Part shown: positions 6,064-32,729 of the stretch, piece after piece
Position numbering within the stretch: position 1 is the first letter of the stretch
How the letters are laid out: each line of letters starts with the position of its first letter
Virus record (IMG/VR): IMGVR_UViG_3300031673_000296
Location: 1 to 32,729 of that record
From: a virus
Direction: 5' to 3' (one strand)
DNA: 32,729 nucleotides
Program-made: the position numbers and the translations under genes
The notes under the pieces: model-generated
What the model saw: only the letters and a program-made list of their open reading frames with translations
What the model was told of the DNA's origin: nothing
Database searches by the model: none

Positions 6064-6701
6064 CAGAGTATCCCGATGTAAGGCTCAAGCAGGGCCATGA
6101 TGTGCGGGTCGCCTTTCATGGTCACCTTCAGACTGAAGCTCATGCCCATCGGCCCTGTGACGCCAAAGATCGCATCCTTCCGTTTGAACAACTGTTCTAC
6201 CGCCAGGATGCACGCCTCGGTGATTTCGTCAGGCTGGCTCCCCGTAGCACAGAAGCCGAACGAGCCAGTGACCTTGACTGATTTGGTAGCACCAATGTAT
6301 CTACCACTTCTGAGATTCGCTGGGAATAACCGAATCCCAGTGGGATGCGTCTCGATCCAACTGTAGGGCCAGCCGTTGGTCGTCGCATTGTGGGGCATGA
6401 GCAGATAGTCGGTCGTGGCCCAGGTGTCGTCGTAGTCCAGGTCGCCGTCCGGGTCGGTGTAGAGGCCCCCGTCGGTCAGTGAGAGCAGGTCGTCCACGTA
6501 GCACAGCCGCTCGTTCTCCGGCGTGTAGTAGCGCGTCTCGGTGGTGGCGTAGAACCTGTGCCCCGCGATGCTGTCTATGGCCCTACTGATCGCCTGGACT
6601 TGCTGCTCCAACGTAGAGTCGCGGGTCTCATCCTCTCCCGTCGTGAAGCTCAGGCGATAGTTCACCAGCGCCAGGGTGCAATATCCGTTGGCGATTGTCA
6701 T
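6063..6701 (-). CDS. Head-tail connector (adaptor) protein
   Basis: A 212-residue protein with the features of gp6-like connector proteins. An N-terminal segment MTIANGYCTLALVNYRL is followed by a helix EQQVQAISRAIDSIAGHRFY. Next comes a beta-rich centre with YYTPENERLCYVDDLLSL, and a C-terminal helix EITEACILAVEQLFKRKDAIFGV. Connector proteins of this type form a ring below the portal and receive the tail. Here it lies unusually far from the capsid gene, after a block of accessory structural genes, but directly before the tail genes. Length and helix placement fit the family; I have no alignment. Confidence 0.7.
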   Translation of the reverse strand: MTIANGYCTLALVNYRLSFTTGEDETRDSTLEQQVQAISRAIDSIAGHRFYATTETRYYTPENERLCYVDDLLSLTDGGLYTDPDGDLDYDDTWATTDYLLMPHNATTNGWPYSWIETHPTGIRLFPANLRSGRYIGATKSVKVTGSFGFCATGSQPDEITEACILAVEQLFKRKDAIFGVTGPMGMSFSLKVTMKGDPHIMALLEPYIGIL

Positions 6702-19421: not shown

Positions 19422-19979
19422 TCACGCCAGCTCACCTATTAGCTCAGGTTGAGTCAGCAAAGTAAGCGTTGTTACACAAGCTTCCTCGTACATCCAATCG
19501 CCCCAAAGAACCCAATCAACAGGCAAACGTCCCTTGCGCCGCGCCACTCCTTCCTGTTGCACAGGCAACATTGCTAACGCAGCTTGCCAGCATACATATC
19601 GCTTTTTTGCTCTTGGTAGTTCCTCAAAAACCGAAACCAAGTCAGGTCGAATATATGCGTTAAAGAACTCGTATTGCTCAACACCCGTCCCTGTACCACC
19701 TGCCTTTTGATTGGTCAGAGGCCAGTCTTGATCGTGTCCCTTGGCAATCCACAAGCCTTCTAATTCAAGGGCCGCGTCAGCCGTGGTCTCCTCCAGAATC
19801 CTCAGTGCTGGCTTCAGTCTTATAGTCTTTAGGTCATCCAGCCATGCTATCTTCTCTACGTTGGTTGTCTTATCAGAGAGATGCTGCTGAAGCCGTGCCT
19901 TGGGTTTCACAGACTGCCCAATATAACGAACAGAATCATCTCGCGGGTCTACCAGAGCATAAATATATGCCTTAGTCAT
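19422..19979 (-). CDS. GIY-YIG endonuclease
   Basis: A 185-residue protein with an N-terminal GIY-YIG nuclease domain: YIYALVDPRDDSVRYIGQS, where the two motif strands are IYALV and RYIGQS, followed by a KPKARLQQHL helix with the conserved arginine. The rest has no clear nuclease motif but includes YEFFNAYIRPDLVSVFEE and a long hydrophobic C-terminal part. Homing endonucleases of this class often sit between phage genes. It overlaps an 8-base end of a methyltransferase C-terminal fragment and precedes the terminase small subunit. Confidence 0.85.
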   Translation of the reverse strand: MTKAYIYALVDPRDDSVRYIGQSVKPKARLQQHLSDKTTNVEKIAWLDDLKTIRLKPALRILEETTADAALELEGLWIAKGHDQDWPLTNQKAGGTGTGVEQYEFFNAYIRPDLVSVFEELPRAKKRYVCWQAALAMLPVQQEGVARRKGRLPVDWVLWGDWMYEEACVTTLTLLTQPELIGELA

Positions 19980-20142
19980 CGCTCACCAGCCTAGGCTCCA
20001 GGCCCATGTCGGCGAGGCTAACATCCACTTGCCCGCACGCCTCGGTTGCCTTGCGCCAATCACCCTTCACGAATACGAGCACATTCTGGTGCGTCTTGCC
20101 CAGCTTGCGGCCCGCCTCGACTGGATATGCTTCACCCAGCAC
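19972..20142 (-). CDS. Stand-alone methyltransferase C-terminal fragment
   Basis: A 56-residue protein beginning at a GTG at 20142 with an AAGGAG ribosome site; a longer frame from the ATG at 20163 is possible. It contains EAGRKLGKTHQNVLVFVKG and DWRKAT. These are nearly identical to NAGRKLGKTHQNMLVFVKG and DWRRAV at the C-terminus of the methyltransferase ending at 28564. No methyltransferase catalytic motif is present here, so it is a fragment kept open or a small protein made from that domain. It lies beside a GIY-YIG endonuclease gene, which hints at insertion or recombination at a methyltransferase gene. Confidence 0.6.
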   Translation of the reverse strand: MLGEAYPVEAGRKLGKTHQNVLVFVKGDWRKATEACGQVDVSLADMGLEPRLVSDD

Positions 20143-20291: not shown

Positions 20292-20576
20292 CTATGCTTC
20301 ACCGAGCGCCCCAATCCAAGGTTGGCTGTCATAGACGTAATTGTACCGCTCCCGTAGCATCGTCAGGTGTCTGCGCCTTGCGGCCTTCGTGTGGGCCTGC
20401 GAGTGATGTTCGAGGCAAAGACAGATCAGGTTCTTTGGCTGATCTCGTAATGGCTTCAGGCGGCCAGGCAACATGCTCTTCGGTATGATGTGATGCGGTG
20501 GCCCGGTCGGTCTGTTACACTCTCGACAGAGACCACCATCGCGCTCGATCACCTGCTCACAGACACTCTGTTTCAC
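20292..20576 (-). CDS. HNH endonuclease 3 (packaging-associated type)
   Basis: A 94-residue protein if started at the GTG at 20576, which overlaps the preceding stop as GTGA; the open frame reaches an upstream start at 20633. It has a CxxC pair (CRECNRPTG), then PPHHIIPKS with the first active-site histidines, and KNLICLCLEHHSQAH with the second CxxxH-type cluster. This is the typical HNH nuclease encoded near terminase genes, where it cooperates with the packaging motor in cutting DNA. Here it is separated from the terminase by a GIY-YIG gene and small genes. Confidence 0.8.
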   Translation of the reverse strand: MKQSVCEQVIERDGGLCRECNRPTGPPHHIIPKSMLPGRLKPLRDQPKNLICLCLEHHSQAHTKAARRRHLTMLRERYNYVYDSQPWIGALGEA

Positions 20577-20890
20577 ATCCCTGTCACTATCGGTGGCCTT
20601 GTCCCTTTCTCCTTGACACACCAGCAACACCATTTGTTGTTATTGGATTGAATCGTGCGGCACCAAAGACATTGCCACCACGCACGCTCCAATGGATAGT
20701 TGCCGCCCGTGGCCGATGTATCGTCTCTGCTGTGTATGTAGTCTCGCCCCGTGGCGTCTGGTGCCATACTTTTCCCCTCGCCGTCCCCACCCCGCCCTTC
20801 GCACGGCTTCCCCACTATAACTCGACACCCGCCCACTGGCGCGTTCGGTGTCGGGGCTTTAACTCCGCCGTCCCACCGACCACCCGTCAC
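20573..20890 (-). CDS. Cysteine-rich small protein, uncertain
   Basis: A 105-residue frame whose C-terminus carries WWQCLWCRTIQSNNNKWCCWC, resembling a zinc ribbon of CxxC...CxxC type. The N-terminal half is low in secondary structure and rich in glycine. Its stop overlaps a GTG start of the HNH gene. The start is uncertain because no clear ribosome site is visible near 20890. It could be a small zinc protein expressed with the HNH gene. Confidence 0.4.
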   Translation of the reverse strand: MTGGRWDGGVKAPTPNAPVGGCRVIVGKPCEGRGGDGEGKSMAPDATGRDYIHSRDDTSATGGNYPLERAWWQCLWCRTIQSNNNKWCCWCVKEKGTRPPIVTGM

Positions 20891-24258: not shown

Positions 24259-24924
24259 ATGTCTAACCAATTCACATACAATCCGCCATTTACGGAAGAA
24301 GAACTCTATGATGCTTATGTTGTTCAGGGGCTGAACCAAACTGAGGTCGCTCAAAGATTTGGCACAACTCAGAAGGTAGTTTGGCGAGCAATGCAGAAAA
24401 TGGGCATCCCTGCACGTAGAGCGGCCCCTAGAAACCAAGCTGGTTCCTTGAATAACAACTGGCGGGGAGGGCGTCTTTTGCAGGGAAAGAGAGCCGAGCG
24501 GAATCCCATCAATGATAGAGGCTATTGGTACATCTATGATCCTACACACACTCATGCTACCAAGGCTGGATACGTTGCAGAACATATTGTGATCGCCACC
24601 ACAACTATTGGTCGATCGTTGAAGAAGACTGAGTGTGTCCATCACATAAATCTCCAAAAAGAAGATAACCGAGCCGAGAATCTCATTGTGGTAACAAGAA
24701 CACAGCATGGCTTGTTGCACGCACAACTCGAAGCCGCCGCCGCCCAATTGCTCGATGCGGGCTTGGTAACTTTCAGTCTCGATAAGGGGTACAGCTTATC
24801 ACGGTGCCCGCCTATGCCAGCGAAGAGACTGCCAAAGGTCATCCCCGCCAGCACCTCCCTCGCGTCGCCCTGGACTATCGCCCACTGCTGGCCCGGGTCA
24901 CTCACGGCTCGTCGCCAGGTCTAG
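24259..24924 (+). CDS. HNH homing-type endonuclease 2
   Basis: The frame starts at the ATG at 24259 and has an AAAGGA-type ribosome site. Residues 1-55 contain a helix-turn-helix (LNQTEVAQRFGTTQKVVWRAMQKMG). An HNH domain follows: GYVAEHIVIATTTIG, ECVHHINLQKEDNRAENLIVV and RTQHGLLHAQL, with the histidine pair and asparagine in place. The last 40 or so residues are read through the antisense of a methyltransferase 5' remnant, so the original stop was probably lost or displaced at insertion. It lies opposite the methyltransferase gene, with its own promoter, and looks like a mobile endonuclease gene. Confidence 0.8.
   Translation: MSNQFTYNPPFTEEELYDAYVVQGLNQTEVAQRFGTTQKVVWRAMQKMGIPARRAAPRNQAGSLNNNWRGGRLLQGKRAERNPINDRGYWYIYDPTHTHATKAGYVAEHIVIATTTIGRSLKKTECVHHINLQKEDNRAENLIVVTRTQHGLLHAQLEAAAAQLLDAGLVTFSLDKGYSLSRCPPMPAKRLPKVIPASTSLASPWTIAHCWPGSLTARRQV
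24807..24905 (-). pseudogene. Remnant of a cytosine methyltransferase 5' end
   Basis: At 24842 an ATG with an AGGGAGGTG ribosome site starts MTFGSLFAGIGG, motif I of a 5-methylcytosine methyltransferase. The match ends at about 24807 and the sequence then becomes the complement of HNH gene 2. The frame is open upstream from a GTG at 24905 with WAIVQGDAREVLAGM, resembling the start of an N4/N6 methyltransferase. This copy differs at many third positions from the motif I copy at 24202, so it is not a simple target duplication. Confidence 0.65.
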
Positions 24925-25008
24925 CAATGCCATCAGCATCACTCCCAAGCAGAACGCCAAGAATGCCCATGACCAGTGAATCGTCTGATCCCATGACAAG
25001 CGTACCAT
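24898..25008 (-). CDS. 36-residue membrane micro-protein
   Basis: A micro-gene with a GGAGGGGTGAG ribosome site encodes MVRLSWDQTIHWSWAFLAF, then CLGVMLMALLDLATSRE. The hydrophobic stretch of about 17-20 residues is a plausible transmembrane helix. It begins just after the helicase loader stop and overlaps the methyltransferase remnant by 8 bases. The function is unknown. Confidence 0.5.
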   Translation of the reverse strand: MVRLSWDQTIHWSWAFLAFCLGVMLMALLDLATSRE

Positions 25009-25009
25009 C

Positions 25010-25831
25010 TCACCCCTCCAGTTCTGGCTTCCATTGCCTCGCCGGCCGGATGTCACCGGCCACAAGTGGCAACACTCGCGTCCATCCGTGCCTCTGTACC
25101 TGCGAACCCTCAGCCAACCGCGACCGCAAGCGCAGGTCAATCCGCTCATCCTTGAGGCTCAAGTTGGTGGTCACTACCAGCGGAAGGCGGTTGATGTAGC
25201 GATAGTCCACAAGCTCGAACAACTTTTCCCTTGCCCAGTCCGTGCCTCGTTCCGCTCCCAAGTCATCCAGTGCTAGAACAGTCACTTTCTGCAATCGCTC
25301 AAACCACTCATCGAATGAGTCGCACGAGTATGAGGCACGCAGTAAATCGAGCATGGCTGCCACGCTGTTGAAGTGTGCTGCCTTTCCACCCTTCAGCACC
25401 TCGTTGGCTATCGCACAGGACAGATGTGTTTTGCCGGATCCGACGTTGCCGATGAGCACCAACCATCCATCGGGTTTCTTTGCATACTCCTCGCAGGCCC
25501 TTTTCGCCTTGGTCATCTCCTCAAATACTTTCGTCTTGCTCATACCGTCAATCGGCACCGACCATTCTGGATGAAAGTTGCTGAACGTCAGATCGAAGAA
25601 TTGCTGATCCTGTAGACCTGACCAACGGCGCAACTCCTGGGCCCGCCGTGCCTCTATTTCGTCTGTCTTGCAGATACACGGTATGCCCTTGCCAAACAGG
25701 GGATGGCCCAAGGGGGCCTGCATCCGGTAGTACCCCAGGCTGTTACAGCAACAGGCCTTCGGTAAGGGAACATGCTTAGGGGAAAACCAGTGATCCCACG
25801 GTCGCGGCCAGGCGATGTTAGTCATGTGCAT
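25010..25831 (-). CDS. DnaC-like replicative helicase loader
   Basis: A 273-residue AAA+ ATPase. An N-terminal zinc-type cysteine cluster (KACCCNSLGYY ... GIPCICKTDE, residues 26-57) is followed by Walker A GNVGSGKTH (128-136), Walker B VTVLALDDLGAE (about 184-195) and a sensor region PLVVTTNLSLKDERIDLRLRSRL. The arrangement matches DnaC/IstB-type loaders that deliver the host DnaB helicase to a phage origin. The start overlaps the initiator-like gene by 14 bases, as expected for a replication operon. Confidence 0.88.
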   Translation of the reverse strand: MHMTNIAWPRPWDHWFSPKHVPLPKACCCNSLGYYRMQAPLGHPLFGKGIPCICKTDEIEARRAQELRRWSGLQDQQFFDLTFSNFHPEWSVPIDGMSKTKVFEEMTKAKRACEEYAKKPDGWLVLIGNVGSGKTHLSCAIANEVLKGGKAAHFNSVAAMLDLLRASYSCDSFDEWFERLQKVTVLALDDLGAERGTDWAREKLFELVDYRYINRLPLVVTTNLSLKDERIDLRLRSRLAEGSQVQRHGWTRVLPLVAGDIRPARQWKPELEG

Positions 25832-28488: not shown

Positions 28489-28586
28489 TTGTCCTCCTTG
28501 GCCATGTTGGCATCCTTGACATTGTTGGCGTCCTTGGCCACCTTAGACACAAAACGCCCTCCGCTATTTTCGGCCGTCTTGGTCAT
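28485..28586 (-). CDS. 33-residue lysine-rich micro-protein
   Basis: A micro-gene that begins inside the end of the upstream methyltransferase gene and ends by overlapping the GTG of the ParB-methyltransferase gene. It encodes MTKTAENSGGRFVSK, then the repeats VAKDAN, NVKDAN and MAKED, from an 18-base degenerate tandem repeat. Coupling at both ends is its best support. It may be a leader peptide for translation of the next gene; the function is unknown. Confidence 0.45.
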   Translation of the reverse strand: MTKTAENSGGRFVSKVAKDANNVKDANMAKEDK

Positions 28587-29499
28587 TTAGCGCGGCGACC
28601 GCCCTCCGCCAGTCACCCTTGACGAAGACGAGCATATTCTGATGGGTCTTACCCAATTTGCGTCCCGCGTTGAATTGCTTGGTTATGCGGATGGGAAGTG
28701 AGCCAATCGATGTTATCAAGATTGCCTCGTTGTAGAGTCTACATCCTGCTTCGCGGAAGATTGCAATCGTATCGCTGACGAAGTTCCGATAGTAGCCTTT
28801 CCTGTCACGGATGTCGCCAACCACAACACAGGCAAACCTATGAGGTGCTAAGAGAGCGATGCTCCTTATTATGATCTGGCGATATTCGGATAAGAAGTCA
28901 TTGTAGGATGGCAATGCGCTCAACTCGCCTGGCAAATCGCTGTAGACTTCAAGGTCGTAGTAGGGTGGGCAGGTAAAGAGAAGATCATACCTTCCTGGGG
29001 CTAGGCGGGCAATGTTGCTACTATCGCCCACGATCCATTGTGGGCCTACGCCAATGGCCTTGGCTTGCGTTCTGTTGGCCAGCACCTGTTCGGTTCTCAG
29101 TTCTATTCCTACATATTCGTATCCCAGATATGCTGCTACTATGCCCCGAACGCTACCGCCCGCGAATGGGTCTAGCACTTTGCCATTTGGCGGACAGAAC
29201 CAGTGATAGATTAGCTCACATAGCACGGGGCAGAAGATACTTGTGCCAGACTGCTGTTTAGGCCCATAGGATAAGTCGCCCCGCATAAGTAGGCTACCAC
29301 CAGATATTTCTGCATCTCGCCCCAATTCACTCTGTATCCCCAGTCGTAACCACACCCGCTTGCGTTCTTGCCAATAACCTTGACGCGCATTCAGAATGCT
29401 GAAGGGCGGCACGATGAATCGCTCTTGCAAAGCGCCGATCTTGGCACGTTCCTGTAGCTCGACCGCTCCGCCCCATAGCCCGCTTTGTTGTACTACCAC
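28564..29499 (-). CDS. DNA methyltransferase, N4/N6 type
   Basis: A 311-residue methyltransferase starting at a GTG at 29499 after TAAGGAGG. The SAM-binding motif is VLDPFAGGSVRGIVAAYLG followed by VGIEL. The catalytic motif is LLFTCPPYYDLE, a CPPY variant of (D/N)PPY in which the first residue is Cys. The C-terminal RKLGKTHQNMLVFVKG motif recurs in the small gene at 19972. It is the first gene after the leader and promoter at 29718. The likely role is to methylate phage DNA against restriction, or for another purpose. Confidence 0.85.
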   Translation of the reverse strand: MVVQQSGLWGGAVELQERAKIGALQERFIVPPFSILNARQGYWQERKRVWLRLGIQSELGRDAEISGGSLLMRGDLSYGPKQQSGTSIFCPVLCELIYHWFCPPNGKVLDPFAGGSVRGIVAAYLGYEYVGIELRTEQVLANRTQAKAIGVGPQWIVGDSSNIARLAPGRYDLLFTCPPYYDLEVYSDLPGELSALPSYNDFLSEYRQIIIRSIALLAPHRFACVVVGDIRDRKGYYRNFVSDTIAIFREAGCRLYNEAILITSIGSLPIRITKQFNAGRKLGKTHQNMLVFVKGDWRRAVAALNDQDGRK

Positions 29500-29748: not shown

Positions 29749-30246
29749 TCACCGTTCGTAGTAGTGCGCCACCCATTCGGCCTCTGTCGGCGGACGACCA
29801 GTCTGGGCCAGGAAGCCGAGAGACCATTGCCTGTCCGCAACGTCCTGGGCCTTGGGCCGCTGACTATGTACCGCGTAGAACTCCGCTTCCCATTCAGGGT
29901 CTCTCGTTGGAGCCGCGACAACGCTCTCCCTGTGCCTGTTTTCAGAGTCCAGGAACAGATGCGGGACATCCTTCTCGGACAGTGTTAGTTCTGTCGGAGT
30001 GCGCGTCGGGATGATTGGCCACGGAGTGCGTGTCGGAATAGTCGGCCACGGATAAGGTTCCGGCGATGGATACGGCCGGGGCGTAGCTGGGCCTGGATAT
30101 GGGTCAGTCGTTGGCTGAGATGATGGTACGGGGTAGGCCTCCCAATATCCAGGCGGGCGCGGTGGTACGGGCTGGGCCAGGAGATTCCTCGTGACCAGTG
30201 CCAGCAACAGCAGGGCTATCGACCATCGTATGATGCTTGTCCTCAT
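29749..30246 (-). CDS. Signal-peptide, proline-rich protein
   Basis: A 165-residue protein, with the ATG at 30246 chosen because AAGGAGAAAAGG precedes it; the frame is open from a GTG at 30267. It has a signal peptide or anchor (MRTSIIRWSIALLLLALV), then a proline-rich region with PYPGPATPRPYPSPEPYPW and IPTRTPWPIIPTRTPTE repeats. The C-terminal 60 residues include DPEWEAEFYAVHSQRP and TGRPPTEAEWVAHYY. The architecture suggests a protein exported or anchored in the membrane with a spacer. Function unknown. Confidence 0.65.
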   Translation of the reverse strand: MRTSIIRWSIALLLLALVTRNLLAQPVPPRPPGYWEAYPVPSSQPTTDPYPGPATPRPYPSPEPYPWPTIPTRTPWPIIPTRTPTELTLSEKDVPHLFLDSENRHRESVVAAPTRDPEWEAEFYAVHSQRPKAQDVADRQWSLGFLAQTGRPPTEAEWVAHYYER

Positions 30247-30263
30247 TTTCCTTTTCTCCTTGT

Positions 30264-30521
30264 TCACGACGCCGCCCAGTCGGGCATACGCAGGCCCGCG
30301 CTCACCGTGATGGTCACGTAGCAGTCCGGGTCGCTATCCAAGTTCTCCTGTATCTCCTGGATCCCCTGCCGCGTTTCCTCGGGCAAGAGGTCAGGGCTGG
30401 CGCAACGCACGGTGAGGCGGACGTACTCTGGCTTGGCGAGGTCGTCGCGTACCACGAACTCAGTCACCTCGTGGACGCCAGGCAGAGCCTCGATAGCGGC
30501 TTTGGCCTCATCCAGGGTCAT
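30264..30521 (-). CDS. Small early protein, unassigned
   Basis: An 85-residue protein with the pattern MTLDEAKAAIEALPGVHEV, EYVRLTVRCASPDLLPEET and a strand pair CYVTITVSAGLR. It may be a small ferredoxin-like fold. It overlaps the upstream 87-residue gene as ATGA (30518-30521) and ends just before the secreted-type gene. No family recognised. Confidence 0.55.
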   Translation of the reverse strand: MTLDEAKAAIEALPGVHEVTEFVVRDDLAKPEYVRLTVRCASPDLLPEETRQGIQEIQENLDSDPDCYVTITVSAGLRMPDWAAS

Positions 30522-30781
30522 TGGGGCCTCTCCTTCTGGGCGTCCAGATATGTCTCGATTGCCAGGCAGATAGTTTCCAGCAGCTCGTCGCCTTCCCGAT
30601 CATCGTGTTGCCATGTGCATTTCTCTGAATCCCAGCCCCATGAAAGCCTACACCTGTAAGGCTTGTACTTACCATCCCTCATCTGAACTGTGCTCCAACA
30701 GCCCTTGGCCCTCGCTGCCTCCAAGGCGTTCATCGCCTGGGCCTTGTCCTTGTGCGGCCACCAGCCAGAATAGTCATCCAT
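30518..30781 (-). CDS. Small protein, start next to 18-bp inverted repeat
   Basis: An 87-residue protein, with the ATG at 30781 preferred over the upstream TTG at 30796. It contains MDDYSGWWPHKDKAQAMNAL, a YRCRLSWGWDSEKCTW segment and a C-terminal helix. It overlaps the 89-residue gene by 52 bases. The 3' arm of a perfect 18-bp inverted repeat lies 12 bases before its ATG and includes the only GAGG near the start, so translation may depend on opening that hairpin. Confidence 0.5.
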   Translation of the reverse strand: MDDYSGWWPHKDKAQAMNALEAARAKGCWSTVQMRDGKYKPYRCRLSWGWDSEKCTWQHDDREGDELLETICLAIETYLDAQKERPQ

Positions 30782-30999
30782 TGTGAAAACCGCCAAAGTA
30801 CCTCAACAGGGCCATATGCACGTTTCCAATAGCTCCTCTTCCACTCCCTCATTGACCTGTTGAGGTACTTTGGGGGCACGACATCAATGTAGCTTTGTTG
30901 CTCTTCTGGGGTCAGGTCATCCCAGACAAGTAGCCCCATCAGCTCTCGCGCAATGCGCCTGACTAAACATTGCCATTCGGCGTCAGTCTTGTCTGGCAT
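30730..30999 (-). CDS. Small protein, unassigned
   Basis: An 89-residue basic protein starting MPDKTDAEWQCLVRRIAREL, with GGAAGGAGG upstream, and containing DDLTPEEQQSYIDVVPPKYL. It spans the perfect 18-bp inverted repeat and overlaps the next gene. The C-terminus is arginine-rich (GGRTRTRPRR). No family recognised. Confidence 0.5.
   Translation of the reverse strand: MPDKTDAEWQCLVRRIARELMGLLVWDDLTPEEQQSYIDVVPPKYLNRSMREWKRSYWKRAYGPVEVLWRFSQWMTILAGGRTRTRPRR
30793..30873. repeat. Perfect 18-bp inverted repeat
   Basis: CCAAAGTACCTCAACAGG at 30793-30810 is the exact reverse complement of 30856-30873, with a 45-base spacer. It lies within one small gene and next to the start of another. It could be an mRNA hairpin, a protein site, or an inverted duplication. 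Confidence 0.85.
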
Positions 31000-31041
31000 T
31001 TGGGCCTCCTTCCTTTGGTTTCCATATCCGGGCTGCTCCCA

Positions 31042-31464
31042 TCAACCGGCGGGCGGTTCGGGATAGTCCACCTCGGCCCAGTGACTGGGAGCTAAGACAG
31101 TCCCTGGTCGATAATACTTGCCTTCCAGATACCAGACTTTGCCTCTCTGCAGCCATTCGGCAATCATCGGCTTTTTTCTGCGTAGGCACTCATGCCAGCA
31201 TACCCAGTAGAGATCGGTTTTTGTTGGCCACCGCTCCTCGCACGGAATCCAGGTGACTTTGAGGGCCTCACAGAGCCTTGCTATTAGCTCGCCCTGTTCT
31301 ATGATGCGCCGCTCTAGCCTCGCTGCCGTCTCATCGACCCTCTCTCGATAAATGCTGCCGATCTTTGCATGAACATCGGCCCAGTCAATCCGCGGCATAT
31401 CGGAACATTCCTTGAGCCAAGCTGCTATGTCTTGGGCCACTCCTTCACCTCGTTTTCTTTCCAC
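31042..31464 (-). CDS. Small early protein with DUF551-like end
   Basis: A 140-residue protein. The N-terminal half is helical and charged (ETAARLERRIIEQGELIARLCEAL). The C-terminal half reads TWIPCEERWPTKTDLYWVCWH and MIAEWLQRGKVWYLEG, ending APSHWAEVDYPEPPAG, the pattern of DUF551 proteins, whose hallmark is the WxPxxERxP start and the final xTHWxxLPEPP. DUF551 proteins are common in phages and of unknown function. The start overlaps the upstream gene by 40 bases; a later start at MPRIDW is possible. Confidence 0.65.
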   Translation of the reverse strand: MERKRGEGVAQDIAAWLKECSDMPRIDWADVHAKIGSIYRERVDETAARLERRIIEQGELIARLCEALKVTWIPCEERWPTKTDLYWVCWHECLRRKKPMIAEWLQRGKVWYLEGKYYRPGTVLAPSHWAEVDYPEPPAG

Positions 31465-31721
31465 TCTGGCAAGGGCGGTTCGGGCCAGTTCGCAAGTCCG
31501 TTCCTGGCCTCGCGTAGTAAGCTGGTTGCACAGTCTACATAGGTGATAATCATGCCCAGCTTGTCGCCAATTTCATAGGGGACGCCAAACTTCAGGCTCG
31601 CAGTCGCCTCAGCCAAGTGACACATTGCCGTGCCCAGAGAAGCCCTAGCGGCCACCGCGTGGATAACGTCGAATTGCTTGAACTGAATCGCACCAGTCTT
31701 GCTACGCTTCGCTACTGGCAT
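31425..31721 (-). CDS. Small early protein, unassigned
   Basis: A 98-residue protein starting MPVAKRSKTGAIQFKQFDVI with helical segments (HAVAARASLGTAMCHLAEA) and a C-terminal WPEPPLPEWKENEVKEW. It begins inside the end of the upstream gene at one of the four similar start/stop overlaps of this region. No enzymatic motif is seen. Confidence 0.5.
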   Translation of the reverse strand: MPVAKRSKTGAIQFKQFDVIHAVAARASLGTAMCHLAEATASLKFGVPYEIGDKLGMIITYVDCATSLLREARNGLANWPEPPLPEWKENEVKEWPKT

Positions 31722-31953
31722 CGGCGGCCTCCTTCCCGAACACGGCCTGCGCTGCTTTCTGTATCGCGTGTGTCATTGCTTCCAACGCCTCGTCGGGCGA
31801 ACTCCATCCCCAGTCGCAGATAGGACAATACCATTCGATCTTTCCCCACGGGGCGGCTTGAGCTACCATCGCGCACGGCTTGGGTTTGGCTTGATTCCAG
31901 TCCGTCGGCATCAGCCGTTCGTGATGACAAATGCGTTCACTCGCTGCTGCCAT
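31702..31953 (-). CDS. Small early protein with CxxC motif
   Basis: An 83-residue protein starting MAAASERICHHERLMPTDW, with a WYCPICDWGWSSPDEALEAM segment that may bind a metal through CPIC and the CHH group. It starts and ends at two of the four repeated start/stop overlaps. Function unknown. Confidence 0.5.
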   Translation of the reverse strand: MAAASERICHHERLMPTDWNQAKPKPCAMVAQAAPWGKIEWYCPICDWGWSSPDEALEAMTHAIQKAAQAVFGKEAADASSEA

Positions 31954-32326
31954 TGACGGCCTCCTTCACGATCAGCCAGGCGTCGCCCACGCAGTCGCCC
32001 CACCGCTCCCATGGTGCCCAAAAGTATCGCTCCCCGCTAGACACCGTATCTAGAATACATTGCACTCCATCGTTGAAGGGCATAAGCAGAACCTCCAGTA
32101 CTCTGTCAGTGGCTTCGTACAGTTCGCGCAGCATGCCACTCACGCCCTCCAGCGTGCCCACGAAGTCGGGAGCGTCTAAATGTGGGTTTCCTTCTGCATC
32201 AACCCAGTGGTCAATACAAGCAAAGTTGATCTCTCCTGGCGGATTAAGTTCAATCACTGAAGCACCTTGCCGCTTCCACCCGTTCGCCAACGCGATGCGG
32301 GCGTTCCGGTCACTCGGTGCTGCCAT
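31937..32326 (-). CDS. Small early protein, unassigned
   Basis: A 129-residue protein with the start chosen at 32326, which coincides with a repeated overlap; the frame is open to 32350. It contains FACIDHWVDAEGNPHLDAPD and CVGDAWLIVKEAVNGSSE. No family recognised. Confidence 0.5.
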   Translation of the reverse strand: MAAPSDRNARIALANGWKRQGASVIELNPPGEINFACIDHWVDAEGNPHLDAPDFVGTLEGVSGMLRELYEATDRVLEVLLMPFNDGVQCILDTVSSGERYFWAPWERWGDCVGDAWLIVKEAVNGSSE

Positions 32327-32576
32327 CGTTTTCCTCTTCTGTCTCTCCACCCAGCAGTGGCAGGCCAGTAGTACCGAACTCGCAGACCTGCGAGATCAGA
32401 GTGTAATCCACAACAACCAACGCATCTGCGGTCGCTAGTGCGGCCCCACGATGATAGAACACATACGGCACGCCTCTCGCATCTTCATACCAATGACCAT
32501 CTGCTTGCGTCTCACCGATCGTCCAGACCCATACTCCCCAGGCTTTCATGTTTCTCCTCTCACTCGGTGCTGGCAT
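32310..32576 (-). CDS. Small early protein, unassigned
   Basis: An 88-residue protein starting MPAPSERRNMKAWGVWVW at a repeated overlap (32576). A second ATG at 32549 has the better ribosome site GAGAGGAG, so both starts may be used. It contains GVPYVFYHRGAALATADAL and an acidic end (GGETEEENDGSTE). Unassigned. Confidence 0.5.
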   Translation of the reverse strand: MPAPSERRNMKAWGVWVWTIGETQADGHWYEDARGVPYVFYHRGAALATADALVVVDYTLISQVCEFGTTGLPLLGGETEEENDGSTE

Positions 32577-32729
32577 CGGCGTCCTCCTCTGTTGGCGGGT
32601 CTGGCCAGGGAATCTCGGCCCAGTGAGTGACGGGATACGGGCCGATTCCCCTAGCATCAACCCAGATAGGCTCCTTCCAATTCCAATGTCCCCAAAAGGC
32701 GAAACCTCCCTCGGCGGTACACCAGGCCC
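32560..32729 (-). CDS. DUF551-like protein, 5' end outside window
   Basis: The last 56 residues of a protein that enters from the right. They include FAFWGHWNWKEPIWVDARG and TGYPVTHWAEI-like ending YPVTHWAEIPWPDPPTEED, the hallmark end of DUF551 proteins, similar to the end of the gene at 31042. Its last codons form the first of the four repeated overlaps. Confidence 0.55.
   Translation of the reverse strand, partial: AWCTAEGGFAFWGHWNWKEPIWVDARGIGPYPVTHWAEIPWPDPPTEEDADASTE

Follow-up and report, generated by a model that had tools for sequence, protein, structure and literature searches.

It has long been asked how the tiny genes that fill phage genomes are gained and lost, and the joints of mosaic phage genomes usually lie without boundary sequences (PMC3029335). 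In the small-gene arrays described here repeated joints are visible, one pair of filled and empty sites narrows a breakpoint to 14 nt, and the form of the joint suggests a route by which neighbouring genes could survive an insertion, namely that the incoming gene supplies the stop codon for the gene preceding it. The window analysed is the whole of a linear IMG/VR record (32,729 bases), probably a fragment of a phage genome, with its predicted genes on the minus strand and with proteins including a tape-measure-like protein, a portal, a large terminase, a DnaC-like helicase loader, a replication initiation protein and DNA methyltransferases. The small-gene array occupies a contig end and may extend past it, because its outermost gene, g0, is cut there. 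Listed inwards from this end, the genes are as follows.

g0, 32560..32727, minus strand: incomplete at the contig end; C-terminus like that of the DUF551-like g5; ends ...EEDADASTE.
g1, 32310..32576, minus strand: 88 aa, no assigned family; starts MPAPSERRN.
g2, 31937..32326, minus strand: 129 aa, no assigned family; starts MAAPSD, ends EAVNGSSE.
g3, 31702..31953, minus strand: 83 aa with a CxxC motif; starts MAAASE, ends EAADASSEA.
g4, 31425..31721, minus strand: 98 aa, no assigned family; starts MPVAKR.
g5, 31042..31464, minus strand: DUF551-like (E 0.003, below the gathering score); the real start is probably the GTG at 31440.
g6, 30730..30999, minus strand: N-terminal part of a TDAEW-family protein; homologous copies in related contigs (two in L104, three in L105).
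g7, 30518..30796, minus strand: the rest of the TDAEW protein, in another frame.
g8, 30264..30521, minus strand: conserved gene that closes the array in the related contigs L004, L103, L104 and L105.

For g0-g5 the coding score is positive in the gene's own frame and negative in all other frames, which indicates that the overlaps between them join real genes. Since g6 and g7 form one continuous ORF (158 aa) in L105 (7538-8014), the window bears a frameshift at this point, be it a genuine mutation or an error of sequencing. Searches of g0-g5 against PHROGs, of g4 against viral contigs, of g2 and g4 against a phage collection, and of the TDAEW family against genome contigs and the phage collection returned no informative relatives. 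Weak homologues of g3 occur in three contigs (L085 953-1090, L086 1998-2135 and L106 9535-9657) in other surroundings and without the junction described below, and from these sequences g3-like genes appear mobile. Within g1, a second in-frame ATG at 32549 with its own good SD (GAGAGGAGAAACATG) lies 27 nt past the junction start, as if the gene's own start had been retained behind the joint. Window positions 29749-30267 encode a protein of 172 aa that is hydrophobic over an N-terminal stretch, contains a long region of proline-rich repeats and has no PHROGs family match.

The original prediction held that four successive junctions at 31702-32590 join unlike small genes through a ribosome site, a start and a stop in one geometry. 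This description is confirmed: the junctions lie on the minus strand, the range given is correct, the overlaps are 20, 17, 17 and 17 nt for J1 to J4, and the gene bodies of the array are unrelated by BLASTP, g1-g4 being mutually dissimilar outside their ends. Aligned on the ATG, the junctions and a putative relic are as follows.

J4, 32560..32592, minus strand: SD GGAGG, ATG (A at 32576) and the upstream gene's TGA, overlap 17 nt; ACAGAGGAGGACGCCG-ATGCCAGCACCGAGTGA; upstream protein ends ADASTE, downstream protein starts MPAPSE.
J3, 32310..32342, minus strand: SD GAGG, ATG (A at 32326) and TGA, overlap 17 nt; ACAGAAGAGGAAAACG-ATGGCAGCACCGAGTGA; upstream protein ends NDGSTE, downstream protein starts MAAPSD.
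J2, 31937..31969, minus strand: SD GGAGG, ATG (A at 31953) and TGA, overlap 17 nt; GTGAAGGAGGCCGTCA-ATGGCAGCAGCGAGTGA; upstream protein ends VNGSSE, downstream protein starts MAAASE.
J1, 31702..31737, minus strand: SD GGAGG, ATG (A at 31721) and TAG, overlap 20 nt; GGGAAGGAGGCCGCCG-ATGCCAGTAGCGAAGCG(TAG); upstream protein ends ADASSEA, downstream protein starts MPVAKR.
Putative relic junction at the g6 start, 30983..31015, minus strand: SD, ATG and TGA spaced as in J2-J4 (17 nt); the present end of g5 lies upstream, at 31042.

Of the four, J1 has diverged furthest: it is without the common TGA, and its upstream frame closes 3 nt later. At the g6 start, the frame closing at the TGA ends in ...GGPNARQD, comparable to ...GDPDDQD at the equivalent live junction of L104, and we infer from these endings that the site is a relic. 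An out-of-frame TGA (+14/+17) is retained where the upstream gene ends elsewhere at window g6 and g8, L104 6444, L004 279, and L105 6590 and 7541, and these stops look like relics of earlier neighbours.

A blastn comparison of the 3-kb array with itself gave junction pairs as the top matches (J4/J3, 33 nt, 85%, E 5e-5; J2/J1, 34 nt, 82%), with further matches between J4/J1, J4/J2 and J3/J2 and a sole non-junction match in the DUF551-like tail (E 0.3). Over positions -16..+17 the summed pairwise identity of J1-J4 was 137, against a maximum of 121 among 200,000 random quartets drawn from 213 other SD-bearing gene starts of the window phage and related phages (0/200,000 as alike), and over +4..+17 alone, which excludes the SD and start codon, it was 61 against a random maximum of 51. 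This test is conservative, since the background probably includes pairs of homologous genes from different phages. The likeness is limited to -16..+17 around the ATG, since identity in the 30-nt flanks on either side is 5-11/30, the level of chance. The best reading of these sequences is that J1-J4 descend from one or few common sequences.

Useful arrays were found in just three relatives, which come from a single metagenome (3300031566): L004 (8 kb; a close relative, but incomplete), L104 (82 kb) and L105 (46 kb). A fourth, L103 from another sample, has the array end only. L004 was found through a search with the DnaC-like protein, which is 93% identical, and the other three by searching with the window and L004 copies of g8, the gene that the array adjoins in all four contigs. 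Genes in the relatives were called simply as ORFs that have an SD. In the fetched pieces of L103, L104 and L105, window proteins were matched by g6-g8 and by methyltransferase-like or weak matches. These contigs thus have little in common with the window beyond g6-g8, indicating that they belong to different phages and that the array has moved between phages.

Array starts in L004, L104 and L105 show a recurrent SD, an ATG and an out-of-frame stop at 14, 17 or 20 nt in one frame relation. A loose junction pattern matched only these three among 19 other records, with 0 matches for a reversed control, and among the many contigs obtained from terminase and methyltransferase searches none of those scanned has such junctions. 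The exact window form of the pattern had no match in viral contigs because the relatives bear diverged junction forms; positions +4..+17 vary by phage, being CAGCACCGAGTGA in the window and AAACTGAGTGA and AAGACTGACGCC in L104/L105/L004. A related core, GGAGGAGN2-6ATGNNNAAACTGAGTGA, had a single match across 257 Gb of contigs from bacteria and archaea (L111, Spirochaetia), which was taken as chance as it lies inside an unrelated repeated gene.

Following the junction core into related phages, as the original prediction proposed, reveals the same junction type between different genes in L004, L104 and L105, and gene order varies among them instead of being constant. For example, an 18-nt sequence (AGGAGGCCGCCGATGCCA) that joins g3 to g4 at J1 is identical (18/18) to L105 5629-5646, where it joins a 127-aa gene to a 130-aa gene and both flanks differ. 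Likewise, ATGCCAAAACTGAGTGAG is shared at 18/18 nt between L004 279-296 and L105 6035-6052, where it starts different genes.

A filled and an empty version of one site were found in L105 and L104. An 82-aa gene in L105 (6342-6590) lies between two exact copies of ATGACCAAGACTGA, the 14 nt from start codon to upstream stop, and in L104 a single copy connects the genes on either side (upstream 87%, downstream 98% to L105); L004 also carries the single-copy form, with the flanking genes joined directly. On the left, L105 tracks L104 through the end of the KLSER gene, the SD and ATGACCAAGACTGA and then passes into the 82-aa gene, and on the right it rejoins L104 at the second ATGACCAAGACTGA and continues into the TDAEW gene (98% to L104). 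The alignment switch falls exactly within the 14-nt start-to-stop overlap (L105 6342 vs L104 6980), which places at least one exchange breakpoint inside a start/stop overlap, as seen at this one junction. The inserted gene has no DNA likeness to its neighbours beyond the 14-nt repeat.

The idea that such junctions are modules for gene exchange therefore stands in part: this indel breakpoint lies exactly in the overlap and 10/20 ends of L104-L105 similarity blocks fall within 20 nt of gene starts (p 0.0002), but other breakpoints fall within genes. L105 is without the KLSEAQKR gene seen in L104 and L004 but retains the 3' tail of that gene (...REVVKELEE; REVxKELEE) fused to another gene beside the junction, the join lying ~30 nt before the start and not at the junction. 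In addition, the L105 TDAEW gene at 6587 is chimeric: its parts match two neighbouring L104 paralogues (at 98% and 91%) and meet within the gene, at a 47-nt block. Assembly error was rejected as its cause, as the same joint is present in L103, which comes from another sample. The similarity between the window and L105 (85%, 609 nt) starts at g6 codon 3, that is, at the junction.

We favour, with a probability of roughly 0.6, the reading that the small genes form an array of cassettes, each with a start and the predecessor's stop at its 5' end, which would be turned over by short-homology recombination. Small accessory genes lie head to tail, with the first 14-20 nt of each serving as its own start and, two frames over, as its predecessor's stop, and with the SD placed in the last codons of the preceding gene. 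A crossover anywhere in the overlap would supply an RBS and start to the downstream gene and still let the upstream gene finish with a sound tail and stop. Because both frames would be left sound, genes could be inserted, deleted or replaced between junction copies with their neighbours unharmed. Translation may be coupled across the junctions, as the geometry fits (SD inside the upstream gene, stop after the start), and pairing of the short repeats itself, through annealing or relaxed homologous recombination, would drive exchange. By analogy, J1-J4 may have arisen as the L105/L104 joint did, an extension made by likeness of design because the searches made returned no homologue of g1, g2 or g4.

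Several points count against exchange of this kind. Exact runs between junction copies are mostly 9-13 bp in window pairs and reach 25 bp in others (overall mostly 9-18 bp), and so mostly fall below the published lengths for efficient pairing (23-27 bp for Red-beta, 31-34 bp for RecA; PMC3945230). Given these short runs and the other breakpoints inside genes, the enzymology is one that we infer, with RecA, a phage annealing protein and illegitimate joining as candidate routes, and junction copies may have been more alike at the time of exchange. No recombinase was recognised among the scanned proteins of the incomplete window genome. Moreover, in any phage selection alone favours gene boundaries as the places where recombinants that survive are joined, and selection for intact genes would likewise place block ends near gene starts.

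The nearest described systems are the SAS elements of cluster K mycobacteriophages and boundary-sequence exchange. SAS are 13-bp sequences, GGGATAGGAGCCC with up to two deviations, located just upstream of starts, for which a use in recombination has already been proposed (PMC3203893). The junctions resemble SAS and ESAS in being short repeated asymmetric sequences with an SD core, and sometimes an upstream stop, at the starts of unrelated small genes (PMC3203893), and like SAS they precede different gene families in one genome, as g1-g4 illustrate. However, by-eye comparison shows that ACAGAGGAGGACGCCG, ACAGAAGAGGAAAACG, GTGAAGGAGGCCGTCA and GGGAAGGAGGCCGCCG share only the AGGAG core with SAS (J3 only GAGG); SAS lie upstream of the start, whereas the window block continues past the start as far as the upstream stop, within the coding overlap. 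ESAS also have inverted repeats, none of which were noticed in an unsystematic look at the window junctions.

As for boundary sequences, one sequence can stand at a gene boundary in separate phages while the genes differ on one or both sides (L105 5641/window J1; L105 6342/L104 6980; L105 6035/L004 279), and for one junction, the L105/L104 site, a breakpoint was seen to fall inside the sequence, within ATGACCAAGACTGA. Island3 gene 68, a small additional gene that Brujita does not have, follows the same filled/empty logic as the L105/L104 site, its 3' end being a repeat (~50 bp) of that of the gene upstream (PMC3029335). That case is a single site with a C-terminal repeat, whereas here one array has several junctions and the 14-nt ATG..TGA overlap itself serves as the breakpoint. 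PeSL cassettes of T4-like phages, as summarised in PMC4503421 (Arbiol 2010, Comeau 2014), are also repeated elements tied to gene shuffling between related phages; in that summary they comprise a promoter and a stem-loop, whereas the window junctions, as identified by reading frames and SD, are coding overlaps. What sets these arrays apart is that the repeated joint is the translational overlap itself, recurring through an array common to different phages.

An alternative that we consider unlikely is that the junction is a translation-control element, kept SAS-like by selection for a set level of coupled initiation, with gene exchange as a side effect. This would accord with the SD and start always falling within the block, with a stop at +14/+17/+20 in one frame relation in all arrays seen, with the confinement of the likeness to the translation start, and with SAS too preceding genes of different families (PMC3203893). 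However, no 16S pairing role is known for the conserved +4..+17 stretch, which varies from phage to phage; the window phage and its relatives otherwise have overlaps that are mostly 4 or 8 nt and without the junction sequence; and the breakpoint of the filled/empty site is not predicted. Start sequestration by RNA structure was also rejected as a coupling device, the predicted mean unpaired values of the SD-ATG stretch (0.35-0.74) being unremarkable as judged without a background set.

Tandem duplication followed by divergence, in which the genes would be ancient paralogues now alike at their ends only, strikes us as improbable. True tandem paralogues do adjoin (the TDAEW family of L104 and L105), and g0 and g5 have similar DUF551-like tails, but the junction likeness falls to chance at the block edges with no fading, the g1-g4 proteins are mutually dissimilar outside their ends, and the DNA of the gene inserted in L105 is unlike its neighbours beyond the 14-nt repeat. 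Chance or convergence of strong ribosome sites and short overlaps is scarcely credible, for although an SD and an ATG are common to any start, the quartet test with and without them already contradicts it, as do the 18/18-nt match to the junction of another phage and the rarity of the related core.

Returning to the favoured array of cassettes with start/stop joints, a broader version, in which the overlap is a general-purpose joint such that any gene with this 5' end would fit anywhere by short-homology recombination, an integrase-free cassette system common to otherwise different phages, is offered tentatively and is on balance doubtful.

Further possible traces of rearrangement were observed in these contigs. 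A 19-aa frame in L004 (232-291, MARTVPRSGAIAKEGQCQN) is like the beginning of window g4 (MPVAKRSKTGAIQ), with similar DNA before L104 6444, and may from its sequence be a g4 remnant. L004 845-1774 contains a GIY-YIG/NUMOD3 homing-type endonuclease gene (1058-1774) directly behind a 16-residue TDAEW remnant (MPKTDAEWR...), and in L004 4731-5375 pieces of the DnaC-gene end and the next gene (window 24855-25096) are repeated or rearranged. Window positions 20021-20120 match methyltransferase-gene regions of many contigs (L005, L006, L009, L012, L019 and L062) at up to 92% over part of the stretch and are probably a leftover methyltransferase-gene fragment, distinct from the intact copy at 28564-29499. 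Nearby lie genes of the GIY-YIG (19422-19979) and HNH (20292-20633) types.
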